Shown here one piece after another: positions 39,167-53,177 of a stretch of DNA of 64,000 bases. Made by a program: the position numbers and the translations under genes. The notes under the pieces were generated by a model. It was not told where the DNA came from and searched no databases. It saw only the letters and a program-made list of their open reading frames with translations. Each line of letters starts with the position of its first letter. Position 1 is the first letter of the stretch. Origin of the DNA: Allostella sp. ATCC 35155 (GTDB lineage: Bacteria > Pseudomonadota > Alphaproteobacteria > ATCC43930 > Allostellaceae). The stretch spans positions 4,336,001-4,400,000 of the forward strand of contig AP019701.1 in the NCBI GenBank assembly GCA_006738865.1. The letters run 5' to 3'.

Positions 39167-40456
39167 TCAGGGCGGAGAAATCGGAGGCGGTTCCAGAGGC
39201 AGCGGACGCCCGTCCATCCCAGCCGTTTCGTGCCCGAGATGGCGCAGGACCGTCGGCGCGATATCGACCAGGGACGCGGGCATCGCGGTCGCGCGGGCGG
39301 TTGCGAAGCCGCCGCCGCGGATCACCAGGAACGGGCTCTGTTCGTGGATTCCAAGGCCGCCATGCTGGCCGAAGCCGTCATAGCTCTTGGCGCTTTCGGG
39401 ATCGGCGACGATGTCCGCATGGCCCGGAACGCCGTGCGCGTTGGGGGCAAGATCGGCTGCCGTCGTCAGCGCCAGCAGCACCGGGCCGTCGACCGGCAGG
39501 CCGAGGCTCGCCAGCTCGCCCCCGGCGAAGACCCGGCCCACCCAGTCCTCGCCCTCCAGGAACCGGCGCAGGGCATCGCGCCGGTCCTGCGCCTCGGGCG
39601 CGGCGTAGATGACCGCCCCCGTGCCGTTCGGCGCGAGCACGATGTCGCTGCTGTCCGGCGCGGTCTTGAGGCCCGCCGCCACCAGCCGCCCGGTCGCGTC
39701 GATCGTGCGGCGGGTCGTCTCCATGCCGTGGTCGGAGCAGGCGACGAACAGGATGTCCTCCCCTTCGCGCGCCAGTTCGTCGACGGTGGCCAGCACCTCG
39801 GCGACGCGATCGTCGGCGGCGCGGATGGCAGCGCGATGGGCGGGCGAGCCGAGCGGCTCGGCGTGGCCGGTATGGTCCGGTTCGGACAACCACAGCGTCG
39901 CGACCGCGGGCCGCCGGCGCCGCAGCATCTCGTCGCAGAAGCGGGCCGTCATCGTCCGGTCTCCCTCGGCACCGATGCGGATCGCGAGGTGCCGTTCGCC
40001 CGTCTCGGGTACGAGTCCGGGCCCGTATGAACCGGCGCGGTGATAGACCCAGCCCCAGCCGTCCGGATCGTGGAAGTAGGCCGCGCCCGGGGAGACGTTC
40101 GACATGATGACCGCGCCGCCATGGTCGGCCAGGCGCTGCGCCAGGGTCGGCACCCGGAGCGTGCGGCCGGTCGCGCGCCGCATCCGCTCGCGGAAGTCGG
40201 GATCGCCGACCGAGCGGCAGACCAGCCCGGCCCCTTCGTCGAGTGCCATGGTGTTGCCGAGGAGGCCGTGGGTTCCGGGCAGGCAACCGGTCGCGATCGA
40301 CGCGGAACTGGTGCGGGTCGTCGACGGAAAGACGCCGCGGAAGGCGCGGAAGGCGCATGCCTCGGCCATCAGGGCGGAGAGCGTCGGCGCGACGTCCGGG
40401 GCGATCAGATCGCGGCGCAGGCTGTCGCAGACGACGATGACGGCACGTCGGGTCAT
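39167..40456 (-). CDS. Alkaline-phosphatase-superfamily phosphodiesterase/nucleotide pyrophosphatase
   Basis: A 429-residue enzyme of the type I phosphodiesterase group. VVCDSLRRDL has the first metal Asp11, FPSTTRTSSASIATG the nucleophile Thr47, LWLSEPDHTGH, CSDHGMETT and GQHGGLGIHEQSP supply the remaining Asp and His metal ligands. It should hydrolyse a phosphodiester, phosphonate or sulfate ester. No signal peptide is seen, so it acts in the cytoplasm. As the first gene of a five-gene ABC-importer operon it probably processes the imported solute. Confidence 0.87.
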   Translation of the reverse strand: MTRRAVIVVCDSLRRDLIAPDVAPTLSALMAEACAFRAFRGVFPSTTRTSSASIATGCLPGTHGLLGNTMALDEGAGLVCRSVGDPDFRERMRRATGRTLRVPTLAQRLADHGGAVIMSNVSPGAAYFHDPDGWGWVYHRAGSYGPGLVPETGERHLAIRIGAEGDRTMTARFCDEMLRRRRPAVATLWLSEPDHTGHAEPLGSPAHRAAIRAADDRVAEVLATVDELAREGEDILFVACSDHGMETTRRTIDATGRLVAAGLKTAPDSSDIVLAPNGTGAVIYAAPEAQDRRDALRRFLEGEDWVGRVFAGGELASLGLPVDGPVLLALTTAADLAPNAHGVPGHADIVADPESAKSYDGFGQHGGLGIHEQSPFLVIRGGGFATARATAMPASLVDIAPTVLRHLGHETAGMDGRPLPLEPPPISPP

Positions 40457-40565
40457 GGGGCTCCCTTCCCGGGCGGGAGCCTTAGCCGCCGCCCATGTCT
40501 GTTCGGCTACGGAGAGGTGAAGGTTCCGCGGAAGCGGCGGCGGGGTCGAGATCGGCCCGGGCGGG

Positions 40566-41267
40566 TCAGCCCTGCAGCCAGTAGCGAAGGACGGCGGTGA
40601 CCGCGTGCGGGCGCTCGAGCGGGGTCATGTGCCCGCTGTCCTCGACCACGACGAGGCGCGCGCCCGGGATGCCGGCGGCCATCTCCTCGTGGACCGCGAG
40701 CGGAGTAAGAGCGTCCTGGCGCCCGCACAGCACCAGCGTCGGGACGGCAATCGCGGCGAGATCCGCCCGGGAATCCGGGCGGCCGAGCATCGCCTTCTGC
40801 TGGTTGAGGAAACCATCGCGCCCGACGCGGTGGGCCATCGCCGTCAGCCCGTCGACCAGCGGCGCGTCGGCGAGCCGGTCGGGGTGGACGAAGATCGGCA
40901 TGTAGGCCTGCATGACGGCGTCCAATTCGCCGCGTTCGCCCATCGCCATGAAGCGGTGCCGGCGCTCGCGCTGCTCCGGCGAGTCGGCCCGGGCCGAGGT
41001 GTCGAGCAGCGCCAGCCGCTCGACGCGCCCGGGCGCCCGGCGCAGGATCTCGAAGGCGAGGTAGCCGCCCATCGAGAAGCCGGCCAGCGCGAACCGCGGC
41101 GGCGCCGTCGCCAGCACGGAATCGGCCATGCCGCCCAGGCTGTCGTGGCGGGAGAGGTCGGCCACGGTCACCTCGGCGAGGTCGCCGAGGTGACGGGCCG
41201 GATGCGCCCACAGCCCCTCGTCGGCCATGTGGCCGGGCAGCAGCAGGAGGGGCGGGCGCGCGGTCAT
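40566..41267 (-). CDS. Alpha/beta-hydrolase
   Basis: A 233-residue alpha/beta-hydrolase: LLLLPGHMADEGLW holds the oxyanion loop, FALAGFSMGGYLAFEIL the nucleophile elbow GFSMGG with the catalytic Ser, LCGRQDALTPL the acid, and VEDSGHMTPLERP the His. It probably cleaves an ester or C-C bond. Its ATG overlaps the stop of the tautomerase gene in an ATGA junction, so the two form a small operon that resembles fragments of aromatic or keto-acid degradation pathways. Confidence 0.87.
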   Translation of the reverse strand: MTARPPLLLLPGHMADEGLWAHPARHLGDLAEVTVADLSRHDSLGGMADSVLATAPPRFALAGFSMGGYLAFEILRRAPGRVERLALLDTSARADSPEQRERRHRFMAMGERGELDAVMQAYMPIFVHPDRLADAPLVDGLTAMAHRVGRDGFLNQQKAMLGRPDSRADLAAIAVPTLVLCGRQDALTPLAVHEEMAAGIPGARLVVVEDSGHMTPLERPHAVTAVLRYWLQG

Positions 41268-41464
41268 CCCTTCGCCTTCCGGCTTTCGGCGACCGACTTC
41301 TCGCCGACATAGAAGTCGCCGGCCGCGATCTCCTCGAACGACACCCAGACCGACTCCTTGGGCATGCCGGCGGTGCCGGCGACGGCGTCGACGATCTTGC
41401 GGGCCATCTCGTCCTTGGTGGCCTGATCGCGGCCGGCGACGAGACGGACGCTGACGAACGGCAT
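41264..41464 (-). CDS. 4-oxalocrotonate tautomerase-family protein
   Basis: A 66-residue protein starting MPFVSVRLVAGRDQATKDEMARKIVDAVA. After removal of Met the catalytic Pro1 is exposed, as in all tautomerases of this group; VSVRL and WVSFEEIAAGDFYVGEKSV complete the beta-alpha-beta fold. Length matches 4-OT monomers. It is translationally coupled to an alpha/beta-hydrolase and divergent from a ModE-like gene 122 bp away. Confidence 0.87.
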   Translation of the reverse strand: MPFVSVRLVAGRDQATKDEMARKIVDAVAGTAGMPKESVWVSFEEIAAGDFYVGEKSVAESRKAKG

Positions 41465-41586
41465 GATGGTTCCTTTCCAGTCGAGGGGAATGCCGAGAGG
41501 CCGCCGATGTTGCCCCGTCCGCCGATCCGGTGGAAGGGGCTTGCGACGCTCGCCTCCTGATGTAGCCTTCGGAACGGTACCCGCCG

Positions 41587-42057
41587 ATGACGACGCCCGC
41601 TCCAAGCCCGCCGCCCGACAAGCCGCCTTCGCGCGGCGTCACCCGGCTCGCCCGCAATCCGGCCCGCGGCAGCGACGAGGCGCGGCTGACCATCCGCGTC
41701 GATTTCGGCAGCCACGGCGCGCTCGGGCCGGGCAAGATCCGGTTGCTCGAGTTGATCGGCGCCCAGGGTTCGATCTCGGCCGCCGGACGGGCGATGGGCA
41801 TGTCCTACCGCCGCGCCTGGCTGCTCGTCGACAGCCTGAACCAGGCATTCCGGGAGCCGGTCGTGGCGACGCAGCATGGCGGCCAGGGCGGCGGCGGGGC
41901 GCAGCTGACCCAGGCGGGCCAGGCACTGATCGCGCGTTACCGGACGATGGAGGGGGCGCTGGAAGCGGCTGCGGCCGAGCACCTCGCGGCGTTCGCCGCC
42001 GCGCTCTCCGAGCGCACGCCCGTCTTCCCCGTCGACGACATCGACGAGGACGCGTAG
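41587..42057 (+). CDS. ModE-like winged-helix regulator
   Basis: A 156-residue protein containing the ModE N-terminal DNA-binding domain: RLTIRVDFGSHGALGPGKIRLLELI, GSISAAGRAMGMSYRRAWLLVDSLNQAF, then GGAQLTQAGQALIARYR. It lacks the C-terminal molybdate-binding Mop domains of full ModE, so it cannot sense molybdate in the usual way by itself. It is convergent with modC, its stop two bases from modC's, which supports a link to molybdenum handling. A proline-rich N-terminal tail precedes the domain. Confidence 0.85.
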   Translation: MTTPAPSPPPDKPPSRGVTRLARNPARGSDEARLTIRVDFGSHGALGPGKIRLLELIGAQGSISAAGRAMGMSYRRAWLLVDSLNQAFREPVVATQHGGQGGGGAQLTQAGQALIARYRTMEGALEAAAAEHLAAFAAALSERTPVFPVDDIDEDA

Positions 42058-42058
42058 C

Positions 42059-43168
42059 TCAGCTCGCGAAGCTGACCGACTTGACGACCGCGAAGACCGG
42101 CGTCCCGGCGGCCAGATTCATCTGCGCGGCCGAGCGCCGGGTAATGCGGGCGACCAGCAGCGCGCCGCCGCAATCGACCTGGACGTCGACCGCAGCGCCG
42201 TGCGCCGCGCCGACGGACGCGACCTGCCCGGCGAGGATGTTCAGCGCGCTGATGCCCTGCGGCCGGTCGGCCGCCAACATCACGTCGCGGGCCCGGATGC
42301 GCAGGCGGACGCTGCGGCCGGCCGTCAGCCCGGATGCCGGAACGAAGACGCGGCCGGCGCGGGTCTCGAGTTCGGCCAGGCCGAAGCCGTCATCCTCGCG
42401 CAGCACGCGGGCGTCGAGCACCGCCCCCGCCTCGTCGGTACCGGACAAGGGCTCGAGGTCGACGCGGCCCAGGACCCGTTCGGGCGCCCCGGCCGCCAGC
42501 ACCTGCCCGCCGGCCAGCAAGACCACCGTCCCCGCGAGCCGCGCGACCTCGTCGATCGCATGGCTGACATAGACGATCGGCACCCCCGCCTCGTCGCGCA
42601 GGCGCTCGATGTAGGGCAGGATCTCGGCCTTGCGCCCCGGATCGAGCGAGGCCAGGGGCTCGTCCATCAGAAGGACGCGCGGCACCGACAGGAGCGCGCG
42701 GCCGATGGCGACGCGCTGGCGCTCGCCGCCGGAGAGCAGCGACGGCCGGCGGTCAAGCAGATGGCCGATCCCCAGCATCTCGACCACGCGATCGAAGTCG
42801 TCGCGCCGGCCGGCGGCCCCCGCGAACCAGCGGCCGTAGAGCAGGTTGTTGCGGACGGCCAGGTGCGGGAAGAGCCGCGCGTCCTGGAAGACGTAGCCGA
42901 TGCGCCGGCGATGGGGCGGCACGAAGATGCCGGCAGCGGTATCGACGAGGATCCGGCCGTCGATGTCGATCCGCCCCTCGTCGGGCCGGATCAGCCCGGC
43001 GATGACGTTGACGAGCGAGGTCTTGCCCGAACCCGACCGGCCGAACAGCGCGGTGATGCCGGATTCGGCCGAAAAGCCGGCATCGAGGCGGAAGGCGCCG
43101 AGGCGATGGCGGACCGCGACCGAGAGGCGGGCCGTAGCCGATGGCGGGACCGGCTGCCGCGCACTCAC
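42059..43168 (-). CDS. modC: Molybdate ABC transporter ATPase ModC
   Basis: A 369-residue ATPase: Walker A FGRSGSGKTSL, the signature LSGGERQR, Walker B VLLMDEPLASLD, and a C-terminal Mop domain (SALNILAGQVASVGAAHGAAVDVQVDCGG, then LAAGTPVFAVVKSVSF). The start is set at GTG 43168 since it makes a GTGA overlap with modB, as elsewhere in this genome; an ATG at 43207 would overlap modB by 43 bases. It imports molybdate with ModB, and probably tungstate as well. Confidence 0.92.
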   Translation of the reverse strand: MSARQPVPPSATARLSVAVRHRLGAFRLDAGFSAESGITALFGRSGSGKTSLVNVIAGLIRPDEGRIDIDGRILVDTAAGIFVPPHRRRIGYVFQDARLFPHLAVRNNLLYGRWFAGAAGRRDDFDRVVEMLGIGHLLDRRPSLLSGGERQRVAIGRALLSVPRVLLMDEPLASLDPGRKAEILPYIERLRDEAGVPIVYVSHAIDEVARLAGTVVLLAGGQVLAAGAPERVLGRVDLEPLSGTDEAGAVLDARVLREDDGFGLAELETRAGRVFVPASGLTAGRSVRLRIRARDVMLAADRPQGISALNILAGQVASVGAAHGAAVDVQVDCGGALLVARITRRSAAQMNLAAGTPVFAVVKSVSFAS

Positions 43169-43860
43169 TGGAGGCCGATCCGGCGGCCGGCCCGCCGCGC
43201 CAGCCATTCCGAAGCCAGCAGGGCCAGCAGGGCGATCGCGACCGAGACCAGCGTCAGGCGCAGGGCGCCGGCATCGCCGCCCGGGACCTGCGTCAGCGCA
43301 TAGATCGCCGAGGGCAGGGTCTGGGTCTCGCCCGGAATGCTGGACACGAAGGTGATGGTCGCCCCGAACTCGCCCATCGCCTTGGCGAAGCAGAGGATGG
43401 CGCCGGCGACGATGCCGGGCAGCATCAGCGGCAGGGTCACGGTGAGGAAGACCCAGACCGGCGACGCGCCCAGCGTGCCCGCCGCGGCTTCCAGCCGGCG
43501 GTCGACCGCTTCGACCGACAGGCGGATGGCGCGGACCATCAGGGGGAAGCCCATCACGCCGGCCGCCAGGGCGGCGCCCGTCCAGCGGAACGCGAAGACG
43601 ATACCGAGATACTCGGCGAGGAAGGTGCCGATCGCCCCACGCCGGCCGAACAGGAGCAGAAGCAGATACCCCGTCACCACCGGCGGCAGGATGAGCGGCA
43701 GCAGGACCAGCCCGTTGAGCAGCCCGACGCCGGGAAACCTACAGCGGCCGAGGACCAGGGCCACCAGCACGGCGACAGGCAGGCTGCCGGCGGTGGCCCA
43801 GCCCGCGACCACGAGGCTGAGCCGGACCGCGGTCAGTTCCTCGTCGCTCAGACCGAGCAT
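43165..43860 (-). CDS. modB: Molybdate ABC transporter permease ModB
   Basis: A 231-residue permease of ModB size: LSDEELTAVRLSLVVAGWATAG, LNGLVLLPLILPPVVTGYLLLLLFG, EAAAGTLGASPVWVFLTVTLPLMLPGI (the EAA loop) and AKAMGEFGATITFVSSIPGETQTLP, a strong ModB signature. The ATG at 43860 gives the usual length. The gene that should precede it, modA (binding protein), is not in this window. Confidence 0.92.
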   Translation of the reverse strand: MLGLSDEELTAVRLSLVVAGWATAGSLPVAVLVALVLGRCRFPGVGLLNGLVLLPLILPPVVTGYLLLLLFGRRGAIGTFLAEYLGIVFAFRWTGAALAAGVMGFPLMVRAIRLSVEAVDRRLEAAAGTLGASPVWVFLTVTLPLMLPGIVAGAILCFAKAMGEFGATITFVSSIPGETQTLPSAIYALTQVPGGDAGALRLTLVSVAIALLALLASEWLARRAGRRIGLQ

Positions 43861-43887
43861 CGCGCACCGGTGGATTCGTCCATCCCC

Positions 43888-43911
43888 GCTATATCTCGCA
43901 AAATATCTCGC
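43888..43911. promoter_or_regulatory. Repeated ATATCTCGC element upstream of modB
   Basis: Between modB and the divergent response regulator lies CGCTATATCTCGCAAAAT (43888-43905) and onward: ATATCTCGC occurs twice, at 43891-43899 and 43903-43911, twelve bases apart. The left side, CGCTATAT, matches one half of the known ModE box, but the expected inverted half is not present. Plausible regulator site for modBC; weakly supported. Confidence 0.35.
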
Positions 43912-44013
43912 CTGCCAATGGTGCAGGCTCATCGTGACGAGCATGGCAGGCGCACGCTATGAGGGATGGGGCGCCCCGGCGAGATCCCGAGGCAAGCGAG
44001 GAGACGGAACGAG

Positions 44014-44925
44014 ATGCGAGCGCTGGTCGTCGACGACGTGCCCGAGATCCGGGAGTTGATCAGCGTCCTGCTCAGCGGCGACGGCTTCCGCGTGGAGGCG
44101 GTCGCCGAGTCGGCCGAAGAGGCCTTCGAGCGGCTGTACCTCGACGATCCCGCCGTCCCGCCGCCGGTCGACGTCATCCTGCTCGACGTCATGCTGCCGG
44201 GCGTCGACGGCATTGCCGCCTGCGGACGGATCAAGAGCGACCCGCGGTATCGCGACATCCCGATCCTGATGGTGACGGCGCGCCAGGAGACGGCATCGCT
44301 GCAGCAGGCATTCGCCGCCGGCGCGGCCGACTACATCCGCAAGCCGGTGCAGAAGTCCGAGCTGCTCGCCCGTGTCCGCTCCTGTCTGCGGCGCCGGAGC
44401 GAATCGGAGCGCCGGATGGCCGGGCGCCCGGAGGGGGCACGCGCGGTCGACCGGCTGCTGCTGCCGGGACGCGACCTGATCGAGGCGACGCTGGCGGCGG
44501 CGGCGGAGGCCGGCCGCTGCGCGCCGATGGCGGTCGCCGCCATCCGTATCGACGACTGGGAGGGTCTGCGCGAACGCCGGGGACGGGCTGCGGCGGACGC
44601 GGCGACGGGCGCCCTGGCCGAACGGCTGGCACGCCAGCCGGCGGCGCTGGGCGACCTGCTGGCCCATGACGGCGAGGGTCGTCTCCTGGCGCTGCTGCGC
44701 CGGACCCAGGCGCCCGAGGCGGCGCAGCGGGTCGCCGGCTGGATCGCCGACGCGGCGGATGGCGAGGCGGGAAATGGCGAGGCGGAGGATGGCCTTGCCG
44801 TCAGCGCTGGCCTCGCCTGGTGCCCGGGCGACACCCCGGACGGGCTGAAGCTGCTGGTCGAGCGCGCGCTGGCGGCACTGACCACGGCGGGCAATGCCGG
44901 CGGCCGTCGCCTCGAGATCGCCTGA
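44014..44925 (+). CDS. Response regulator with degenerate GGDEF-like output domain
   Basis: A 303-residue protein. Residues 1-122 form a receiver domain: ALVVDDVPEIRELI, phospho-acceptor Asp58 in VILLDVMLPG, and Lys110 in DYIRKPV. The rest follows the shape of a diguanylate cyclase (AAIRIDDWEGLRERRGRAAADAATGALAERL, then VSAGLAW) but the GGDEF motif is replaced by HDGEG (218-222), so it should not make c-di-GMP. It may bind a nucleotide or act as a protein partner. It begins a run with manC and a hybrid histidine kinase, its likely partner. Its stop lies in a 15-bp tandem repeat. Confidence 0.85.
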   Translation: MRALVVDDVPEIRELISVLLSGDGFRVEAVAESAEEAFERLYLDDPAVPPPVDVILLDVMLPGVDGIAACGRIKSDPRYRDIPILMVTARQETASLQQAFAAGAADYIRKPVQKSELLARVRSCLRRRSESERRMAGRPEGARAVDRLLLPGRDLIEATLAAAAEAGRCAPMAVAAIRIDDWEGLRERRGRAAADAATGALAERLARQPAALGDLLAHDGEGRLLALLRRTQAPEAAQRVAGWIADAADGEAGNGEAEDGLAVSAGLAWCPGDTPDGLKLLVERALAALTTAGNAGGRRLEIA

Positions 44926-44955
44926 GTCGAGATCGCCCGAGTCGAGATCGCCCAG
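44911..44955 (+). repeat. 15-bp tandem repeat, three copies, across a stop codon
   Basis: Three adjoining copies: CTCGAGATCGCCTGA (44911-44925), GTCGAGATCGCCCGA (44926-44940) and GTCGAGATCGCCCAG (44941-44955). The first copy ends in the TGA stop of the response regulator; the later copies have CGA or CAG at that place. The period is a multiple of three, so without the stop the frame would continue. Confidence 0.85.
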
Positions 44956-45018
44956 GCCGCCGGACTCCGCCCCGACAGCCGCCCAGTGGCGGCATCCACC
45001 GCCAAGAGGAGCCATCCG

Positions 45019-46446
45019 ATGCCGTCGTCCCTCCGCCTCCATCCCGTCATCCTGTCGGGGGGATCCGGGACGCGGCTGTGGCCGCTGTCCCGCGCCGACC
45101 TGCCCAAGCAGCTGCTGCCGCTGCTGGGATCGTCCTCGCTGCTGCAGGAAACCGCCACGCGAATCGCCGACGGCGACCGCTTCGCGCCGCCGCTGATCGT
45201 CTGCAACGAGGACCATCGCTTCCTGGTGGCCGAGCAGCTGCGGGCGATCGGCGTGGCGCCGGCGGCGATCGTGCTGGAGCCGGTCGGGCGGAACACGGCC
45301 CCCGCCGTGGCGGTGGCGGCGACCATCGTCGCGAGGGCGGAGCCGGGCGGCGTGCTTCTGGTGATGCCGTCCGACCACCACATCGCCGATCTTCCCGCCT
45401 TCCTCGAGGCCGTCGACCGGGCGGCGGAGGCGGCAGTCGAGGGCCGCTTCGCCCTCTTCGGCATCCGCCCCACGGGGCCCGACACCGGCTATGGCTACAT
45501 CGTCGAGGGCCCCCCCACCGGCACCGCCGGCACCCATGTCGTCGAGCGCTTCGTCGAGAAGCCGCCGCGCGCGGCGGCCGAGGCCCTGCTGGCGACGGGC
45601 CGGGGCTGGTGGAACAGCGGCATCTTCGTCATGCGCGCGGACCGCTACCTGGAGGAGATCGAGCGCCTGCAGCCGGCCATCGCCGAGGCGGCTCGCGACG
45701 CCGTCGCGGGCGGTAGCGGCGACCTCGATTTCCTGCGGCTCGGCCGCGATGCCTTCGCCGCCTCGCCCGCCATCTCGATCGACCACGCCGTCATGGAGCA
45801 CACGCCCGAGGCCGTCGTGGTGCCCGTCGACATGGAATGGAGCGATCTCGGCTCGTGGCAGGCACTGTGGGACATCACGGCCAAGGACGCGGACGGCAAC
45901 GCCATCACGGGCGATGCGCTGACGGTCGATTCGCGGAACTGCTACGTCCGGGCCGGGAGCCGCCTGGTGACACTGCTCGGAGTCGAGGGCATCAACGTCA
46001 TCGACACCGACGACGCGCTGATCGTCATGGCACGCGAACGGTCCCAGGACGTGCGCAAGGTGGTCGACCTGCTGGCCGCGCGCGGACGGCCGGAGGTCAA
46101 GAGCCACAAGCGCATCTACCGCCCCTGGGGCTATTACGAGACCGTCGATCTCGGCCAGCGCCATCAGGTCAAGCACATCCAGGTCAAGCCGGGCGGCAAG
46201 CTGTCGCTGCAGATGCACCACCACCGCGCCGAGCACTGGATCGTCGTCCAGGGCACCGCCCGCGTCACCTGCGGAAATGACGAACAACTGCTCCGCGAGA
46301 ACGAATCCATCTACATCCCGCTGGGCCAGCGCCATAGACTGGAGAACCCCGGCCGCATCGCGCTCGACCTGATCGAGGTGCAGACCGGCAGCTATCTCGG
46401 CGAGGACGACATCGTGCGCTTCGAGGACACCTACGGCCGGACCTGA
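45019..46446 (+). CDS. manC: Mannose-1-phosphate guanylyltransferase / mannose-6-phosphate isomerase
   Basis: A 475-residue bifunctional enzyme of the ManC/AlgA/CpsB type: VILSGGSGTRLWPLSRADLPKQLL is the nucleotidyl-transfer signature, GYIVEGPP and FVEKPPRAAAEALLATG follow, and the C-terminal cupin domain (RPWGYYETVDLGQRHQVKHI, MHHHRAEHWIVVQGTA) holds the isomerase metal site. It makes GDP-mannose for exopolysaccharide or LPS. AGAGGAG precedes the ATG. Its stop overlaps the next start (TGATG), tying polysaccharide-precursor synthesis to a signalling pair. Confidence 0.93.
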   Translation: MPSSLRLHPVILSGGSGTRLWPLSRADLPKQLLPLLGSSSLLQETATRIADGDRFAPPLIVCNEDHRFLVAEQLRAIGVAPAAIVLEPVGRNTAPAVAVAATIVARAEPGGVLLVMPSDHHIADLPAFLEAVDRAAEAAVEGRFALFGIRPTGPDTGYGYIVEGPPTGTAGTHVVERFVEKPPRAAAEALLATGRGWWNSGIFVMRADRYLEEIERLQPAIAEAARDAVAGGSGDLDFLRLGRDAFAASPAISIDHAVMEHTPEAVVVPVDMEWSDLGSWQALWDITAKDADGNAITGDALTVDSRNCYVRAGSRLVTLLGVEGINVIDTDDALIVMARERSQDVRKVVDLLAARGRPEVKSHKRIYRPWGYYETVDLGQRHQVKHIQVKPGGKLSLQMHHHRAEHWIVVQGTARVTCGNDEQLLRENESIYIPLGQRHRLENPGRIALDLIEVQTGSYLGEDDIVRFEDTYGRT

Positions 46447-49016
46447 TGGCGGACGGCCCCCCTCCACGACCACGCAGGACGTCCCGGAACGCAATCACGG
46501 CGGTCGTCGCGTTTGCCTATCTCGTGCTGCTCGTCGTGGTGGCCACGGGCAACTGGCTGACGGCGGACCAGGATCGCCAGGCCGTCCTGCAGGCTGCGGA
46601 GCGTTCGGCCGCGGCCACGGCCTTGCTGCTGGCCGAGCATGCCGACCGCACGATTCACGCGATCGACCTGCACATGCACTCCATCGCCGAAACCTTCCGC
46701 ACGGAAGACGGGTCGCTGGAGGAATTCATCGGGCGTGCCCGCCTGCTCGCCGAGGCCGGCGACGGGCGGCTGCCGCAGGCGCTCGGTTTTGCCATCACCG
46801 ACGAGGCCGGCATCGTCCGGCACGCCGCCAACCCCGCCACGATCGGACTCGACTTCGGCCGCCATCCGCAGTTCGTCCGCATGGCTTCCGACCGCAGTGT
46901 GCGCTACGTCCATTCGCGCCCAATGCTGATGCCCCAGATCGGCCAGCGGGCCGTCGTCATGGCATGGCCGCTGCGCGACCGCGCGGGCCGGTTCCGCGGC
47001 GCGGTCGGCACGATGCTCAACCCCGAATATTTCGCGACGGTGATGAGCCGGCTGGCGGCGAGCGGCCCGGCGCATGCCGCGGCGATCGCCTATCCCGACG
47101 GCACCATCGTCGCCGCCCACGGCCTGGACGCGCCGGACGCCCGTGGCGAGTGGTCGCTGCCGGTCGGACTGCCACTGCCGCCGGATGAATCGGCGGCGGT
47201 TGCCACGTCCGGGTTCGACGGCACGCTCGGAGATCGCAGCTCGCGGTGGATCATCGCCACCGCGGCGATTCCCGGCTTCGGTCAGGCGGCCATGGTCGCG
47301 ATCGACTGCGACGAGGTGCTGGCGCCGGTGATCGAGCGGGCGCTCCTGCTCGCCGCCTTCTCCGTCGGCGGCCTGCTCGTCCTCGCCCTGCTGTCCTGGA
47401 TCGTGCTCCGCTCCTACCGGGCGCAGGCGCGGGCGCTGGCCGCCGCCCAGGCCGCCAGCCAGGCCAAGACCGCTTTCATCGGCGTCCTCAGCCACGAGAT
47501 CCGCACGCCGATGAATGCCATCCTCGGCATGAACCGCCTGTTGCGGACCGCACCGGACCTGCCCGAACGGCTCCGCTACCACACCCAGGTCATCCGGTCG
47601 GCCGGCGACAATCTCGTCACCGTACTGAACGACATGCTCGACATGTCGAAGATCGAGGCCGGCCAGCTCGAGTTGGAGCGCGCCGATTTCGACCTGGAGC
47701 AACTGGCCGACGAGGTGGTCGCCCTCCATCGGCCGACCGCCGCGGAAAAGGGCCTGGAACTGCGGGTCGCCCCGATACCCTCGCCGCCGATGCTGCGCGG
47801 CGACGCCGTCCGCATCCAGCAGATCCTGGGCAACCTCGTCGGCAACGCCATCAAGTTCACGAATGCGGGCCGCATCGACGTGGAGTTCGCGATCGCGGGC
47901 GCCGCGCGCGGCGATCCCGCCGGCCGCCCGGCCGTCCTGCACATGGAGGTGCGGGATACCGGGGTCGGCATCCCCGCCGACCGCCGCGGCCGGCTGTTCC
48001 AGCCGTTCAGCCAGGCGGACAGCTCGACCACCCGCCGCTTCGGAGGCACCGGCCTCGGCCTGGCGATCTGCCGCCGGCTGACGGAAATGATGGACGGCAC
48101 GATCGAGTTCGACAGCGAGGAAGGCCGGGGCAGCTGCTTTCGCGTGCGCCTCATGCTGACGACGGCCGAGACCCGCCGGCAGCGCGACGGTGCCGCTCCG
48201 GCGGCCCGCCTCCGGCCGCTGTCGATCCTGGTGGCCGAAGATTCCGCGCTCAATCAGGAGCTGATGCGCGAGGCGCTGCAGGCGGTCGGGCACCGGGTGA
48301 CGATCGCGGAATCGGGTACGGCCGCGGTGACCGAGGCCGAGAGCGGTCGGCACGACCTGATCCTCATGGACGTTCGGATGCCCGGCATGGACGGCGTCGA
48401 GGCGACGCGCCGGATCCGGGCCGGCGGCGGGGCCGGCGCCGGCCTGCCGATCATCGGGCTGACGGCGGACGCAACCGAGGCCCAGCGCGAGGAATGTCTG
48501 GCCGCCGGCATGGAGGCGGTTCTGGTGAAGCCCGTGGACTTCGCGCGCCTTTGGCAGCTGGCAGCCAGCCTGGTTCCGGCAGCCGACGCCGCGGCCGCTC
48601 CGGCCACTGCCACGGCGACGACCTCGGTCGCCGAAGCGATGCAGGCAGCCGCTGCGGCCGAAATGGAGGTGGCAATGGTGACGTCGGACGCTTTCTCCGG
48701 GATGCCCCTCGTCGACCACAAGCGCCGGGAGCGCACCGCTGCGGCCATCGGTGCCGAGCAGGAAGGCCGTCTGTTTGCCGCCATGCTGGACAGCGTGGCC
48801 GAGACGATCGCCGTCCTGGCCAAGCCGGGCCTGCCGCTGGACGACGTGCGCGCGGCCGCCCATCGTGCCAAGGGCGCGGCCGCGAACCTGGGCAGCCCGC
48901 GCATCGCCGGCCTGCTCGAGGCGATCGACACGGCCGCCCGGGCGGGGACCCCGCCCTCCGGTGCCGACATCGAGCGCCTGCGCGAGACGCTGGAGGCCGT
49001 CTCCGCCACGGTCTGA
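46446..49016 (+). CDS. Membrane hybrid sensor histidine kinase with Hpt domain
   Basis: An 856-residue kinase. Two membrane helices (about residues 15-38 and 298-322) flank a periplasmic Cache-like sensor of about 260 residues. Then come HisKA (SHEIRTPMN, His350), HATPase (GNAIKFTN, DTGVGIPA, GGTGLGLAI), a receiver domain (SILVAEDSALNQEL, Asp642 in LILMDVRMPG) and a C-terminal Hpt domain (AAHRAKGAAANLGS, His806). This gives a complete phosphorelay in one protein, with the nearby response regulator as the likely end point. The ATG overlaps the manC stop by one base. Confidence 0.92.
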   Translation: MADGPPPRPRRTSRNAITAVVAFAYLVLLVVVATGNWLTADQDRQAVLQAAERSAAATALLLAEHADRTIHAIDLHMHSIAETFRTEDGSLEEFIGRARLLAEAGDGRLPQALGFAITDEAGIVRHAANPATIGLDFGRHPQFVRMASDRSVRYVHSRPMLMPQIGQRAVVMAWPLRDRAGRFRGAVGTMLNPEYFATVMSRLAASGPAHAAAIAYPDGTIVAAHGLDAPDARGEWSLPVGLPLPPDESAAVATSGFDGTLGDRSSRWIIATAAIPGFGQAAMVAIDCDEVLAPVIERALLLAAFSVGGLLVLALLSWIVLRSYRAQARALAAAQAASQAKTAFIGVLSHEIRTPMNAILGMNRLLRTAPDLPERLRYHTQVIRSAGDNLVTVLNDMLDMSKIEAGQLELERADFDLEQLADEVVALHRPTAAEKGLELRVAPIPSPPMLRGDAVRIQQILGNLVGNAIKFTNAGRIDVEFAIAGAARGDPAGRPAVLHMEVRDTGVGIPADRRGRLFQPFSQADSSTTRRFGGTGLGLAICRRLTEMMDGTIEFDSEEGRGSCFRVRLMLTTAETRRQRDGAAPAARLRPLSILVAEDSALNQELMREALQAVGHRVTIAESGTAAVTEAESGRHDLILMDVRMPGMDGVEATRRIRAGGGAGAGLPIIGLTADATEAQREECLAAGMEAVLVKPVDFARLWQLAASLVPAADAAAAPATATATTSVAEAMQAAAAAEMEVAMVTSDAFSGMPLVDHKRRERTAAAIGAEQEGRLFAAMLDSVAETIAVLAKPGLPLDDVRAAAHRAKGAAANLGSPRIAGLLEAIDTAARAGTPPSGADIERLRETLEAVSATV

Positions 49017-49092
49017 CGCAGCGCTGCGGCCTGGATGCGGCGGGCGCTCCGCCCTACGATGGCGGCCCCGCCACGGACCGGAGCGCCACCTC

Positions 49093-50211
49093 ATGGCCCC
49101 CCTCGACGGCATCACCGTCATCGACTTCTCGACCCTGCTGCCGGGGCCGCTCGCGACACTGATCCTCGCGGAGGCCGGTGCCACGGTCCTCAAGGTCGAG
49201 CGTCCGGGGACGGGCGAGGACATGCGCGCCTATCCCCCCGCCTTCGGCCGGGACGGCGGCGCCAATTTCGGGCTGCTCAACCGCGGCAAGCGCTCGCTCG
49301 CCATCGACCTCAAGGCGCCCGGCGCCCGCGACCGCCTGCTGCCCCTGATCGATCGGGCCGACGTCCTGGTCGAGCAGTTCCGGCCGGGCGTGATGGACCG
49401 GCTCGGCCTCGGCTGGGATACGCTCTCGCAGCGGAACCCGCGCCTCGTCTATTGCTCGATCACCGGCTACGGCCAGAGCGGACCGAAGGCCCAGGTCGCC
49501 GGCCACGACCTCAACTACATGGCGGAAACCGGCCTCCTCGCGCTGGCGGCCGGCCCCGACGGCGCCCCGGTGGTCCCCCCGGCGCTGGTCGCCGACATCG
49601 CCGGTGGAACCTATCCCGCCGTCATCAACATCCTGCTCGCGCTGGCGGAACGCCAGCGTACCGACCGGGGTCGGCGCCTCGACGTCGCCATGACCGACAA
49701 CCTGTTCACCTTCATGTACTGGGCGATGGCCGACGGCCTCGCCGGGGGGCAGTGGCCGCGACCGGCCGGGGCGCGCGTCACCGGCGGCTGGGCGCGCTAT
49801 CGCATCTACCGCACGAGCGACGGCCGCTTCCTCGCGGCGGCCCCGCTGGAGGACCGGTTCTGGGCGATCTTCTGCGACGTGCTCGACCTGCCGGAGGCGG
49901 CCCGCAACGACGAGGCCAATCCGGAGGGCGCAGCGCGCATCGTCGCCGAGACCATCGCATCGCGGACGGCCGCGGACTGGCAGGCCGCCTTCGCCGGGCG
50001 GGACTGCTGCTGCGTCGTGGTCAACTCGCTGCAGGAGGCCATGGCCGAGCCGCACTTCGTCGGGCGCCAGCTCTTCGCCCGCGGGCTGCTCGACGGCCTG
50101 GGCGGCCGGATCCCGGCCCTCAAGACGCCGGTGGTTCCCGAACTGACGGCAACGCCGGCGGAGGCGGGCTATCCAGCGCTCGGGGAGGCGAACGGGCTGC
50201 TCGGCGGCTGA
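49093..50211 (+). CDS. CaiB/BaiF-type CoA transferase
   Basis: A 372-residue family III CoA transferase/racemase: LDGITVIDFSTLLPGPLATLILAEAGATVLKVERP, NRGKRSLAIDLK, VYCSITGYGQSGP and HDLNYMAETG with the candidate catalytic Asp. The last third is shortened compared with typical 390-400-residue members but shows the usual ending (LKTPVVPELTATPAEAGYPALGE). Substrate unknown; relatives move CoA between carboxylic acids or racemise 2-methylacyl-CoA. The 3' end overlaps that of the convergent ATPase gene by 43 bases. Confidence 0.9.
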   Translation: MAPLDGITVIDFSTLLPGPLATLILAEAGATVLKVERPGTGEDMRAYPPAFGRDGGANFGLLNRGKRSLAIDLKAPGARDRLLPLIDRADVLVEQFRPGVMDRLGLGWDTLSQRNPRLVYCSITGYGQSGPKAQVAGHDLNYMAETGLLALAAGPDGAPVVPPALVADIAGGTYPAVINILLALAERQRTDRGRRLDVAMTDNLFTFMYWAMADGLAGGQWPRPAGARVTGGWARYRIYRTSDGRFLAAAPLEDRFWAIFCDVLDLPEAARNDEANPEGAARIVAETIASRTAADWQAAFAGRDCCCVVVNSLQEAMAEPHFVGRQLFARGLLDGLGGRIPALKTPVVPELTATPAEAGYPALGEANGLLGG

Positions 50212-51047
50212 GGGCGGTCGCGGCGAACGGCGCCGACGAACGCGCGCACATGCTCGTCGGCCGGCCGCTCCAGGATGTCGGCCGGCGCCCCGACCTGGAC
50301 GACCGCGCCGTCGCGCAGGATCGCGATGCGGTCGGCGAGGCGTGCCGCCTCGTCGAGGTCGTGGGTCACGAACAGGACGGTCCGGCCGTGGCCGCGATGC
50401 AAGGCCGCAAGCTCGTCCTGCAGCTCCGCCCGGGTCAGCGGATCGAGGGCGGAGAAGGGCTCGTCCATCAGCAGCACCGGCGTCTCCACCGCCAGCGCAC
50501 GGGCCAGGCCCACCCGCTGGCGCATGCCGCCGGACAGCGCCTGCGGCATGTGCCGCTCGTAGCCGGCGAGGCCGACGCGCTCGAGCCACGCCGCGGCCCG
50601 CGCCTCGCGCTCGGCTCGCGGCTCACCGCGCACCTCGAGGCCGTAGGCGGCATTCTCGAGCACCGTGCGGTGCGGCAGCAGGCCGAAATGCTGGAAGACC
50701 ATGGCGACCCGGCGACGTCGGAACGCCTCCAGCCCGCGCCGGTCGAGCGCCGAAACCTCGATGCCGTCCACCCGGATGCATCCCGCCGTCGGGTCGATGA
50801 GGCGATTGACGTGGCGGATGAGCGTCGACTTGCCCGACCCGGACAGGCCCATCACGGCAAAGAACTCGCCGGGCGCGATCGTCAGCGACAGGTCGGCGAG
50901 CGCCAGGACGTGGCCCTCCGCCAGCAGCGCCGCCTTGTCCGCCCCGGCCCGGAAGCGCTCGAGCGCCCGCTGCGGACGGCGGCCGAAGAGCGTGGTCACG
51001 GCCGCGAACTCGATCATCGGAGCGCCGGCCGGCGGAGCGTCCCGCAT
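50169..51047 (-). CDS. Glycine betaine/proline-type ABC transporter ATPase (ProV/ChoV-like)
   Basis: A 292-residue ATPase: Walker A MGLSGSGKSTLIRHVNRLI, with the Arg-His-x-Asn-Arg-Leu stretch typical of osmolyte ATPases, signature LSGGMRQR, Walker B VLLMDEPFSALDPLTR. The C-terminal CBS domains of ProV are absent, as in ChoV/OpuC-type alphaproteobacterial proteins. The N-terminal GRRPQRALERFRAGADKAALLAEGHVLALADLSL region also fits ProV. The ATG at 51047 overlaps the permease stop by one base (TGATG). Confidence 0.9.
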   Translation of the reverse strand: MRDAPPAGAPMIEFAAVTTLFGRRPQRALERFRAGADKAALLAEGHVLALADLSLTIAPGEFFAVMGLSGSGKSTLIRHVNRLIDPTAGCIRVDGIEVSALDRRGLEAFRRRRVAMVFQHFGLLPHRTVLENAAYGLEVRGEPRAEREARAAAWLERVGLAGYERHMPQALSGGMRQRVGLARALAVETPVLLMDEPFSALDPLTRAELQDELAALHRGHGRTVLFVTHDLDEAARLADRIAILRDGAVVQVGAPADILERPADEHVRAFVGAVRRDRPQPPSSPFASPSAG

Positions 51048-51838
51048 CAGCCGCCGCGGCCGGCCTGCAGCCGGCGCCCCCAGGCCTGGGTGATGCGGTC
51101 GAAGGCGACGGCGAGCAGCACGATGCCGAGGCCGCCGACGAAGCCCTGGCCGGCATCGCCGCGCTGCAGCCCCAGCAGCACGGTCTCGCCGACACCGCGC
51201 GCGCCGATCATCGAGGCGATGACGACCATGCCCAGCGCCATCATGACGGTCTGGTTCACGCCCTGCATGATCGCGGGCAGCGCGAGCGGCAGTTCCACCC
51301 CCCACAGGAGCTGGCGCGGGGAAGCCCCGAAGGCGCGCGCGGCCTCGGTCGCCGCCGCGTCGACCTGGCGGATCCCGAGGTCGGTCAGCCGCACCAGGGG
51401 CGGCGTCGCGTAGACGACGGTGGCAAGGATCGCCGGCACCTTCCCCAGCCCGAACAGCATGGCCGCCGGGATGAGATAGACGAAGGAGGGGATCGTCTGC
51501 ATGAGGTCGAGGAGCGGCGCGAGCCCAGCGCGGACCGTGGCGCGCTTGGCCGCCAGCACGCCGAGCGGCAGGCCGACGAGGACGGAGATCGCCACCGAGA
51601 CGAGGACGATCGCGACCGTCTGCATCGCCTGATCCCACAGGCCGAGCGCACCCACGAACCAGCACACCGCCGCCATGGCGGCCGCCAGGCGCAGGCTGCG
51701 ACCGGCGGCGAAGGCGAGCGCCGCCACCGCAGCGACGAAGACGACGGGCGGCACGGCGCGCAGCGCCTGCTCGATCGCCACCAGGACGACCAGAAGCGAG
51801 TCCGAAACCGCCTGGAAGCCGTCGCCATAGACCACCAC
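51047..51838 (-). CDS. Glycine betaine/proline-type ABC transporter permease (ProW/ChoW-like)
   Basis: At least 263 residues with about six membrane helices and family segments PLLDLMQTIPSFVYLIPAAMLFGLG, TEAARAFGASPRQLLWGVELPLALP (EAA loop) and ARGVGETVLLGLQRG. The first ATG/GTG-type start is the GTG at 51838, but the frame upstream (LFPDLAGPIRRGVNAAVDH) matches the conserved ProW N-terminal segment, so the true start is likely further up. CTG codons at 51901 and 51898, after GGAG, are candidates. It is flanked by the ATPase and binding-protein genes. Confidence 0.87.
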   Translation of the reverse strand: MVVYGDGFQAVSDSLLVVLVAIEQALRAVPPVVFVAAVAALAFAAGRSLRLAAAMAAVCWFVGALGLWDQAMQTVAIVLVSVAISVLVGLPLGVLAAKRATVRAGLAPLLDLMQTIPSFVYLIPAAMLFGLGKVPAILATVVYATPPLVRLTDLGIRQVDAAATEAARAFGASPRQLLWGVELPLALPAIMQGVNQTVMMALGMVVIASMIGARGVGETVLLGLQRGDAGQGFVGGLGIVLLAVAFDRITQAWGRRLQAGRGG

Positions 51839-51923
51839 GAGATGGTCTACGGCCGCGTTTACACCGCGGCGGATGGGGCCGGCGAGGTCGGGAAACAGCA
51901 GCCGGCTCCGTCCGCAGACAGGT

Positions 51924-52940
51924 TCAGAGCGCCGCCTTGACGCGTGCGGCCACCTCTGCCGGCACCCATGCCTGCCACAGATCGGGGTGCGACTTCAGGA
52001 AGTTCCGTGCCCCCGCTTCGGGTTTGCCGCCGCTGTCCTGCATGAAGGCGAGCGCCTCGGAGACGAGGGCGCCGGTCGTCTGGTAGGCGTCGAGGAAGCG
52101 GGCGATGCCCGGCGCCTTGTCGGCGAAGGCCGAGTTGATCCCGACCACGACCTTGACCACCGGATAGGCGACGGCCTTGGTGACCTTCGCCGGATCCTTC
52201 TCGGCCGACATCGCGTCCCACACCTTCTGGTCGAAGGCCGGCTCGTCGAGCATGACGACGTCGCTGCCGATCTTGCCCAGCAGCCAGGTCGGGCCCCAGT
52301 AGTAGAAGACGATCGGCTGGCGCCGCTTGATCGCGCTTTCCGCGGCGGCGGCCAGTGCGGCACCCGTCCCCGGCCGGAAGTTGGTGAAGTCGTCGGCCAG
52401 CCCATAGGCGTGCAGCTTCTTCTCGTTGACCACCTCGCACTGCCAGCCGGCGACGCAGTTGTAGAAGCGCCCCTTCGACGGCTCCTCCGGGTCGCGGAAG
52501 ACCGCCTTGTGCTTGGCGAGATCGGCGACCGAGCGCAGGCCCTTGGCGGGCGCCTGGTCGCCTTCGACGAGATAGCGCGGCACGAACCAGCCCTGCACCG
52601 CGTCCGGGAAATTCGTGCCGTTCTCCCGCACCGTTCCGGCCGCCGCCGCCTTGGTCCAGGCTTCCGGCTGGTTGTTCGACCAAATCTCCATCAGCACATG
52701 GACGTCGCCGCGGGCGAGGCCGTTGATCAGGGGGATGGTCGAGCCGGGGATCTGGTCGACCTTGCAGCCATACCCGTGCGCCAGGACGAACTGCGCGACG
52801 GCCGTGTGGAAGGCGGCCGAATCCCAGTCGAGCCCTCCGAACATGACGGGCTCGTCGACCTCGCATTTCGGCGCGGCCGCGGCCGTGCCGGCCCATGCCA
52901 AGGCAGCACACGCCGCCACCGTCCGGAGAATCATCTTCAT
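51924..52940 (-). CDS. Glycine betaine/choline-type substrate-binding protein (ProX/ChoX-like)
   Basis: A 338-residue periplasmic protein. A signal peptide (TVAACAALAWAGTAAAA) is followed by the OpuAC fold: GGLDWDSAAFHTAVAQFVL, MEIWSNNQPEAWTKAAAAG, FYNCVAGWQCEVVNEKKL and QPIVFYYWGPTWLLGKI, with aromatic residues (the Trp-containing motifs) of the kind that box in quaternary amines. The ligand is probably betaine, choline or carnitine. GGGAGGG lies before the ATG. It heads the operon with the permease and ATPase. Confidence 0.88.
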   Translation of the reverse strand: MKMILRTVAACAALAWAGTAAAAPKCEVDEPVMFGGLDWDSAAFHTAVAQFVLAHGYGCKVDQIPGSTIPLINGLARGDVHVLMEIWSNNQPEAWTKAAAAGTVRENGTNFPDAVQGWFVPRYLVEGDQAPAKGLRSVADLAKHKAVFRDPEEPSKGRFYNCVAGWQCEVVNEKKLHAYGLADDFTNFRPGTGAALAAAAESAIKRRQPIVFYYWGPTWLLGKIGSDVVMLDEPAFDQKVWDAMSAEKDPAKVTKAVAYPVVKVVVGINSAFADKAPGIARFLDAYQTTGALVSEALAFMQDSGGKPEAGARNFLKSHPDLWQAWVPAEVAARVKAAL

Positions 52941-53126
52941 TGGAACAGCCCTCCCGCAAGCCGCCGGCCACGGGGCCGGCGCAATCATGCTTCCATGGTG
53001 CCCGCCGGCCTTCGTTCCGGCCGCCGGACCTGCCACCCCTCGGGGACATCGCACCCTCCCGGAGGCCCGCCCCCCTGTCAACCGTCGCGGTCCTCCGGAG
53101 GCGGGCGAAGCCGATCGACCGCGTCG

Positions 53127-53132
53127 TATATA
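53127..53132 (+). promoter_or_regulatory. Possible -10 box ahead of the ATP-grasp cluster
   Basis: The 237-bp divergent gap between proX-like and ATP-grasp genes holds one AT-rich spot, TATATA (53127-53132), 45 bases before the ATG, without a recognisable -35. On the other strand TGTCAA (53077-53082) gives a TTGACA for the proX side. Otherwise only GC-rich sequence. Confidence 0.25.
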
Positions 53133-53177
53133 GTCCGGTTCCGGCTCCGGCCGGAGTCGCGCGAAGACGAGGATGGT

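Follow-up and report, generated by a model that had tools for sequence, protein, structure and literature searches.

The only manC gene found in Stella lies between a hybrid kinase and a response regulator with a dead-looking GGDEF domain, a probable contact switch for surface sugars based on mannose

An active diguanylate cyclase carries the GG(D/E)EF motif together with the metal Asp and the Asn and Lys of the A-site, and a c-di-GMP receptor of the I-site type carries RxxD five residues before GGDEF. The response regulators WspR, PleD, and DgcR, in which a receiver (REC) is joined to a GGDEF domain, are cyclases. In CdgI of E. coli, PopA of Caulobacter, and CdgG of Vibrio, a degenerate GGDEF domain serves binding or contact, not catalysis. 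The accessible part of one report describes strong contacts made in two-hybrid tests by some isolated degenerate GGDEF domains (PMC5635695). As far as the available text on the E. coli NfrB-NfrA/DgcJ system goes (PMC8669469), the MshEN-domain glycosyltransferase is touched directly by the GGDEF protein serving it; in most pseudomonads, the nfr genes show linkage to a GGDEF gene, and in genomes with no other NfrC/WecB-like enzyme, to the gene of such an enzyme.

The locus described here lies in the window, a stretch of 64,000 nucleotides from Allostella sp. ATCC 35155. It comprises three intact genes in the same direction on the forward strand: those of the response regulator RR-A (44014..44925), of ManC, an enzyme of the bifunctional mannose-1-phosphate guanylyltransferase/mannose-6-phosphate isomerase type (45019..46446), and of the hybrid histidine kinase HK-A (46446..49016). 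Base 46446 is common to the TGA of manC and the ATG of HK-A, which confirms the gene order and the one-base overlap given in the preliminary description; ATG 45019, judged by eye from the sequence, is the most likely start of manC. The layout suggests that the three genes are co-transcribed as one operon-like unit. A promoter scan of the locus found no promoters, and a terminator scan found one terminator-like site on the opposite strand, the same number as in shuffles. By eye, no glycosyltransferase or EPS gene was recognised in the ORF list of positions 40000-53000, and the plasmid collection contained no RR-A match.

Among four genomes of Stella, which are star-shaped bacteria, the trio is present in three, with identities of 67–73% for the regulator and 81–87% for manC; such conservation indicates that the arrangement is more than chance. 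The fourth genome (G002), whose manC branches apart from those of the remaining three (tree support 85/87), keeps manC and the kinase together, lacks RR-A, and has a kinase orthologue without Hpt; a modB-like gene is located no more than about 60 bases upstream of its manC. A crude gene caller had left this genome without the kinase, a result rejected when a protein search found it. The adjacency of manC and the kinase is thus kept in all four genomes (one-base overlap in three, 33-base gap in one), and the position of manC beside the kinase is independent of the regulator.

HK-A has the domains and residues of a hybrid kinase of a multistep phosphorelay, as first proposed: Pfam assigns HisKA (H350), HATPase, REC (D642), and Hpt (H806), the last at 48780..49007 on the forward strand (30.9 bits against a cut-off of 24.6). 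The sensor region is dCache-like and scores below the Pfam cut-off. Phosphotransfer is predicted from these features. RR-A and the Hpt domain of HK-A are both present in three Stella genomes and both absent from G002; this joint presence or absence, which amounts to one evolutionary event, is what a relay from kinase through REC and Hpt to the regulator predicts. Additionally, RR-B, a paralogue of RR-A, directly adjoins an Hpt-bearing hybrid kinase in 4/4 Stella genomes. Judging by co-occurrence and nearness, HK-A and RR-A look like one phosphorelay, and the signalling pair suggested earlier is supported. All four complete HK-A paralogues tested lack Hpt, one more kinase matching the HK-A sensor (G000:C1:3058608) having been left out of this test. 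Co-duplication of HK-A and HK-B with their regulators is unsupported, the best match of HK-A in its own genome being another kinase, without Hpt. Likewise unsupported is the idea that the Hpt of HK-A was recently copied from that of HK-B: in a tblastn search against 26 Stella Hpt loci, it clearly matched its own orthologues only.

RR-A (303 aa) is a response regulator with a receiver (PF00072, 88.2 bits; residues 1–125) in which the predicted acceptor is D58, with T88 and K110 in place. Its output domain (44461..44922, forward strand; residues about 150–303) matches GGDEF (PF00990) with 30.3 bits, above the curated cut-off of 23.8. The best Foldseek matches of the full-length AlphaFold model were REC-GGDEF regulators of the WspR/PleD/DgcR type (3bre, 9g86, and 6zxm). 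Since the VIA list for this model consisted mostly of receiver structures, the output domain was modelled alone (pLDDT 76.7). It matched GGDEF structures in Foldseek from E 1.3e-8, and its best VIA match was 5euh (Z 18.1, rmsd 3.2, 157 aligned residues); the fold is that of GGDEF and not an unrelated one.

When RR-A was aligned by HMM and MAFFT with six GGDEF/GGEEF domains from the same genome, R-x-G-G-(D/E)-E-F paired with H-D-G-E-G-R-L. The GGDEF equivalent is therefore GEGRL (residues 220–224; 44671..44685, forward strand); HDGEG (residues 218–222; 44665-44679, forward strand), which the preliminary description had placed there, is two residues off and was rejected. The first Asp of DxD is replaced by Arg, the Lys by Glu, and the Asn by Arg, and the catalytic Glu is gone. 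With GEGRL for GGDEF and a changed A-site, RR-A falls outside the active diguanylate cyclases: its output domain keeps the fold, looks catalytically dead, and is indeed degenerate in the sense first proposed, the metal Asp, Lys, Asn, and Glu all being missing.

A domain with the GGDEF fold kept might still be a c-di-GMP or GTP sensor of the PopA/CdgI type, as had been suggested. According to the parts of the reports available, the degenerate GGDEF protein CdgI, with its intact I-site, binds c-di-GMP (PMC5635695), and I-site binding directs PopA to the pole (PMC3359988). The I-site position reads ALGD in RR-A and TIGD and CLGD in its orthologues; the Asp is kept (LGD), whereas the three proteins have Ala, Thr, or Cys in place of the Arg, and RR-A does not have the receptor motif. 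RR-A is one of the REC-pseudoGGDEF regulators; in this group, 14/14 aligned members have lost the equivalents of the active-site Lys, Asn, and Glu, and 13/14 the metal Asp. Because the ligand-contacting residues, including the I-site Arg, are gone, nucleotide or c-di-GMP sensing by RR-A is not favoured on the sequence evidence, and we consider it quite improbable.

The output domain evolves fast: its identity among RR-A orthologues is 55–66%, versus 81–85% for canonical GGDEF orthologues, which also fits a loss of function. Possibly, RR-A works as a phosphate sink or as a receiver-only partner, with an output domain that is decaying and functionless. The dN/dS values (0.13–0.15 in the receiver versus 0.36–0.55 in the output domain) agree with this, as do receiver-only relatives, that in G056 lying beside an Hpt gene and that in G188 without one called by the script. 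However, the output domain shows a dN/dS below 1, 3/3 orthologues keep the reading frame, and such a domain is kept in relatives of other genera; we regard its being functionless as very unlikely.

Outside Stella, a pseudo-GGDEF regulator was found in at least six genomes, and in all six it is located inside a GT2 glycan-synthase cluster. The MshEN half of the synthase was seen in 5/6 clusters, as was GH113, a beta-mannanase family; the G088 contig ends first. The clusters are probably of the mannan type. In G216, which has two manC genes, one of them belongs to the cluster, a single gene away from a second regulator of the group; in the other five genomes, the manC matches are outside the cluster regions read. 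In G088, the regulator adjoins a stand-alone Hpt gene. Ranked by their GT2, the closest class genomes (57% identity or more) number four, and these are the four non-Stella regulator carriers of the sample; a GT2 match at E <= 1e-60 occurs in at least 42 of 385 class genomes. The four Stella genomes contain no close relative of the MshEN-GT2, with 25–26% matches at E <= 1e-10 in two of them; the Stella locus, with the synthase absent, is not a cluster of the MshEN-GT2/GH113 kind. Since Stella is without a GT2 of this kind, the glycan link is carried over to it by analogy.

The first class search gave 29 loci, of which 3 were degenerate, 21 had GGEEF, and the script left 5 unresolved. Among the best 19 new loci from 55 matching genomes of the phylum, 1 was degenerate, 13 were canonical, and 1 had another output domain; in the other four, the script picked another protein. 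The best five to eight candidates were scored per genome (three for GT2), so that carrier counts are lower bounds; the contexts read do not include those of L208, L248, L249, and L251, which were also fetched. That the pseudo-GGDEF regulators form a single group rests on full-length trees, in which a bias from the output domain is possible; in the receiver-only tree, they were separated weakly from canonical ones (41/44). Only rows passing a REC-plus-GGDEF filter entered the trees, and G740, found later, is in none of them; G206, counted as canonical, reads SGEQF. L055 (uncultured Ruminococcus), a row without the GGDEF motif, was left out by hand, and its apparent EAL domain, seen by eye, marks it as another kind of protein. 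Pfam GGDEF is not reached by RR-B, G082, and G216 RR2, and G740 stays below the cut-off, which makes the GGDEF descent of these relatives less sure. The output domain of G082 matches the GGDEF HMM weakly (4 bits, no Pfam match), and that of G216 RR2 was assigned by eye and alignment.

ManC of the locus belongs to the TIGR01479 equivalog (657.1 bits, cut-off 372.95, positions 1–467 of 467), with both domains present. Each of the four Stella genomes yields a single match at E <= 1e-40, so manC should serve all GDP-mannose needs of these bacteria and is probably a housekeeping gene. Such a gene could be a bystander at a permissive spot beside a genuine kinase–regulator pair, with a signalling target unrelated to sugar metabolism. 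The single copy is in keeping with this, as are the retention of manC and kinase without the regulator in G002 and the surroundings of manC in 19 non-Stella genomes, where tblastn found no HK-A- or RR-A-like neighbour, although several contigs end near manC; in one of the 19 (G057), a kinase/receiver pair is two called genes from manC. Against it are the manC–kinase adjacency in 4/4 Stella genomes and the glycan clusters in which the same regulator group occurs outside Stella, in one case together with an additional manC. A bystander manC is a real possibility, albeit one we hold unlikely.

Given that the only gene found in Stella for GDP-mannose formation is located between a kinase and a regulator with a dead-looking output domain, and that relatives of this regulator occur in sugar-polymer clusters, we regard RR-A as a probable switch that works by contact and serves mannose-based surface sugars. 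The initial idea of a link between signalling and polysaccharide thus appears to gain indirect support from the GT2-cluster settings of relatives, with protein contact as its probable means and nucleotide sensing disfavoured. HK-A would sense a periplasmic cue through its dCache-like region and then autophosphorylate, and the phosphate would pass from REC through Hpt to RR-A, whose output half keeps the GGDEF fold and would make no c-di-GMP. Phosphorylation may shift the oligomeric state of RR-A and hence its contact with a protein partner, most likely a component of the GDP-mannose-dependent synthesis of surface glycans, namely a membrane glycosyltransferase or else ManC. One signal would thereby govern both the supply and the use of the precursor. 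The computation shows the architecture, the fold, the loss of catalytic residues, the conservation, the co-occurrence of regulator and Hpt, and the glycan-cluster setting of relatives; an action of RR-A on ManC or GDP-mannose flux is what we infer. As a whole, an operon-like unit with a phosphorelay to RR-A and a c-di-GMP-free contact with a GDP-mannose or surface-glycan partner has, in our judgement, an even chance of being correct. A more far-reaching version, which we find doubtful, would make the REC-pseudoGGDEF regulators an alphaproteobacterial family of their own: the local cyclase partner of a c-di-GMP-type glycan synthase would have become a contact switch for the synthesis of mannose-based glycans, driven by phosphorylation and independent of c-di-GMP. 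In Stella, this switch would have been uncoupled from the synthase and would act on ManC, with the phosphorelay setting GDP-mannose supply directly.

The analysis points to a recognisable group of REC-GGDEF regulators without catalytic residues in glycan-synthase clusters, probably of the mannan type, and such genes should not be counted as diguanylate cyclases. The joint presence or absence of regulator and Hpt is a natural experiment, and the phosphorelay is directly testable. If the contact model is true, a domain resembling a c-di-GMP enzyme would control a polysaccharide precursor or synthase free of c-di-GMP.

Compared with WspR, PleD, and DgcR, RR-A has the same domain order and folds, but it is without the metal Asp, Lys, Asn, catalytic Glu, and I-site Arg of these cyclases. 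The use proposed for its degenerate domain is that known from CdgI, PopA, and CdgG; however, CdgI and PopA have a c-di-GMP-binding I-site, according to the available parts of the reports (PMC5635695, PMC3359988), whereas RR-A lacks its Arg. In the NfrB-NfrA/DgcJ system, as described in the accessible text (PMC8669469), the GGDEF partner is a cyclase, the sugar enzyme is an epimerase, and an MshEN glycosyltransferase is present; the Stella locus has a dead-looking regulator and ManC, and Stella is without that GT2. Like other ManC-type enzymes (TIGR01479), the ManC of the locus is a full-length, two-domain protein and shows nothing unusual in itself; only its neighbours are unusual.

The three genes that the preliminary description placed together, with manC enclosed by a signalling pair and overlapping the kinase gene by one base, are intact and co-directional. 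The response regulator RR-A (44014-44925) has Pfam Response_reg and GGDEF domains; manC, running from the ATG at 45019 to 46446, has NTP_transferase and MannoseP_isomer domains; and the hybrid kinase HK-A (46446-49016) has HisKA, HATPase_c, Response_reg and Hpt domains, with a sub-threshold dCache_1 match. RR-A and manC are separated by 93 bases, and base 46446 is common to manC and HK-A. The contig is single (5,339,096 bases), the window being its bases 4336001-4400000, and the genus Stella is now named Allostella (PMC12488387). Molybdate-transporter-like genes, named by eye, lie upstream of RR-A and are divergent; those at 41587-43944, by eye a ModE-like regulator gene and genes of a molybdate-type ABC transporter, adjoin RR-A, and similar ones hold the same position in the other Stella genomes. 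A 15-base sequence is repeated three times in tandem across the RR-A stop codon (44912-44956; TCGAGATCGCCTGAG and variants). The ORFs at 51873-55043 and 62138-63955 share a similar stretch (GANW...), are cyanophycin-synthetase-like by eye and may be related.

The output domain of RR-A is GGDEF-like in fold, and its motif had been misplaced by two residues. In an HMM alignment with six GGDEF/GGEEF domains encoded elsewhere in this genome, R-x-GG(D/E)EF aligns with HD-GEGRL of RR-A; therefore, the GGDEF equivalent is GEGRL (residues 220-224), which starts two residues after the HDGEG initially read. In RR-A, Arg stands in for the first Asp of DxD, Glu for the Lys after it, Arg for both the Asn and the catalytic Glu, and ALGD for RxxD. 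The roles of the metal Asp, Lys, Asn, catalytic Glu and RxxD are those known from the GGDEF literature. None of the 14 pseudo-GGDEF proteins aligned retains an equivalent of the Lys, Asn or Glu, and 13 have lost the metal Asp, the exception being the RR-A paralogue RR-B of the Stella genome G002. The full-length RR-A model (pLDDT 76.8, from an alignment of 3 sequences) best matches WspR, PleD and DgcR. The output domain modelled alone (pLDDT 76.7, pTM 0.76) matches GGDEF domains in Foldseek from E 1.3e-8, and VIA aligns it with 5euh (Z 18.1, rmsd 3.2, 157 aligned residues); the 50 VIA matches listed are, judging by titles, presumably all GGDEF or GGDEF-EAL proteins. These matches argue against an unrelated fold.

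The output domain is less conserved than the receiver. The identity between RR-A orthologues is 55-66% in the output domain and 85-88% in the receiver; in one canonical REC-GGDEF orthologue set from the same three genomes, used as a control, the values are 81-85% for GGDEF and 88-93% for the receiver. The dN/dS ratio (Nei-Gojobori style script) is 0.36-0.55 for the pseudo-GGDEF domain and 0.13-0.15 for the receiver, absolute values being rough because synonymous sites are GC-constrained. These comparisons indicate that constraint on the pseudo-GGDEF domain is relaxed, not absent.

The RR-manC-kinase arrangement was found in three Stella genomes, including that of the window, and HK-A carries Hpt in all three. 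The fourth genome compared, G002 (570 contigs), has the order modB-like gene, manC and an HK-A orthologue of 736 residues (59% identity) that ends after REC. Pfam detected no Hpt in this orthologue, no remnant was seen in three downstream frames (tblastn, by eye), and the best whole-genome match to RR-A was of the RR-B type. Thus, RR-A and the Hpt of HK-A are present or absent together, the pattern that a kinase-REC-Hpt-RR relay predicts, albeit in a single event. Four complete HK-A-like paralogues in Stella are without Hpt; a fifth (L142), cut by a contig end, was left out of the count. RR-B shows 36-42% identity to RR-A and, in all four Stella genomes, directly adjoins a hybrid kinase of approximately 1000 residues with Hpt (PF01627) and no manC between; in the genome of the window, this kinase also has PAS, HisKA, HATPase and REC domains. 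RR-B was unlisted by Pfam GGDEF in a search of its own genome and was reached by an HMM from in-genome GGDEF domains. Near this module, three Stella genomes encode a long protein (L081:13193-16114, L082:2845-5430, L083:13255-16479), the start of which resembles calcium-binding repeat proteins by eye.

Each of the four Stella genomes has exactly one manC match at E <= 1e-40. Of the 20 manC regions fetched, 19 are non-Stella, and in these no HK-A- or RR-A-like gene was found next to manC by tblastn, some contigs ending nearby; in the genome G057, a kinase/receiver pair lies two called genes from manC.

The searches comprised output-domain and whole-RR profiles against 385 class genomes, a profile against 398 phylum genomes and one scan of genome contigs. 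Pseudo-GGDEF RRs were found in at least six non-Stella genomes: a Sphingomonadales MAG (locus L040), G082, G088, G216 (two copies), G311 and G740. The 17 whole-RR-profile matches at E <= 1e-40 comprise six pseudo-GGDEF, seven GGEEF, one SGEQF (G206), two receiver-only proteins and one shorter pseudo-GGDEF protein, the second RR of G216. Pfam GGDEF scores RR-A and the first G216 RR above the cut-off and the G740 RR below it, and is absent from the G082 RR and the second G216 RR. Full-length trees separate the pseudo-GGDEF proteins as one group from the others (11 versus 19, 100/100; 13 versus 25, 95/99); the receiver-only tree gives the same split weakly (41/44). Receiver-only RR-A relatives lie behind a second receiver gene at L084:8544-9802 (G056) and L247:7178-8432 (G188), both with a GT2-like gene close by (by eye); the two receiver genes of G056 are separated by an Hpt gene (Pfam 28.9 bits).

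In all six non-Stella genomes, the pseudo-GGDEF RR belongs to a cluster that also encodes a polytopic protein and the same GT2 (L040:1492-8565; L250/L205 in G216; L206 in G311; L246 in G082; L296 in G740; L207, partial, in G088). The MshEN half of GT2, the BcsB-like gene and the GH113 gene are present in five of the six, the G088 contig stopping inside GT2; a barrel-like gene is likewise present in five and was not found in G082. This recurrent alphaproteobacterial glycan cluster encodes a BcsB-like protein, MshEN-GT2, a polytopic protein, the pseudo-GGDEF RR, a barrel-like protein and GH113. MshEN and GT2 were confirmed by Pfam on L040 and L205, and GH113 on L040 and L296; the remaining assignments rest on tblastn. 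'BcsB-like', 'polytopic' and 'barrel-like' are our readings, and Pfam matched none of the three proteins in L040. The end of the G088 RR overlaps a stand-alone Hpt gene. G216 has one manC within the cluster and another elsewhere; the manC matches of the other five genomes lie outside the cluster regions read. GT2 matches at E <= 1e-60 occur in at least 42 of the 385 class genomes; those with identity of at least 57% are confined to four, the same four non-Stella class genomes that have a pseudo-GGDEF RR. Among 20 GT2 loci with 1.5-kb flanks, other receiver genes lie near several more distant GT2s. The MshEN-GT2 synthase is absent from the four Stella genomes. The authors who characterised GH113, a beta-mannanase family, suggested a role for some members beside GT2 genes in making or remodelling polysaccharide for biofilms or storage (PMC9032380).

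We met no name for this cluster in the literature searched and, in open-access full text, recognised no publication with the pseudo-GGDEF RR group or the Stella operons as its subject; the word 'degenerate' is absent from a survey of alphaproteobacterial c-di-GMP genes (PMC9756655). The MshEN-GT2 protein NfrB of E. coli requires one cyclase, DgcJ, which contacts it directly; a gene for a sugar-nucleotide enzyme is often linked to nfr genes, as is a GGDEF gene in pseudomonads (PMC8669469). Strong contacts have been seen for some degenerate GGDEF domains (PMC5635695). We propose that the GGDEF partner has lost catalysis in the alphaproteobacterial group and retained the contact, with the receiver now in control. 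The target of the RR in Stella, where the synthase is missing, would be ManC or another glycan protein; the contact, its partner and the output are inferred. We call the group REC-GGDEF response regulators turned non-catalytic, a kind that is itself known.
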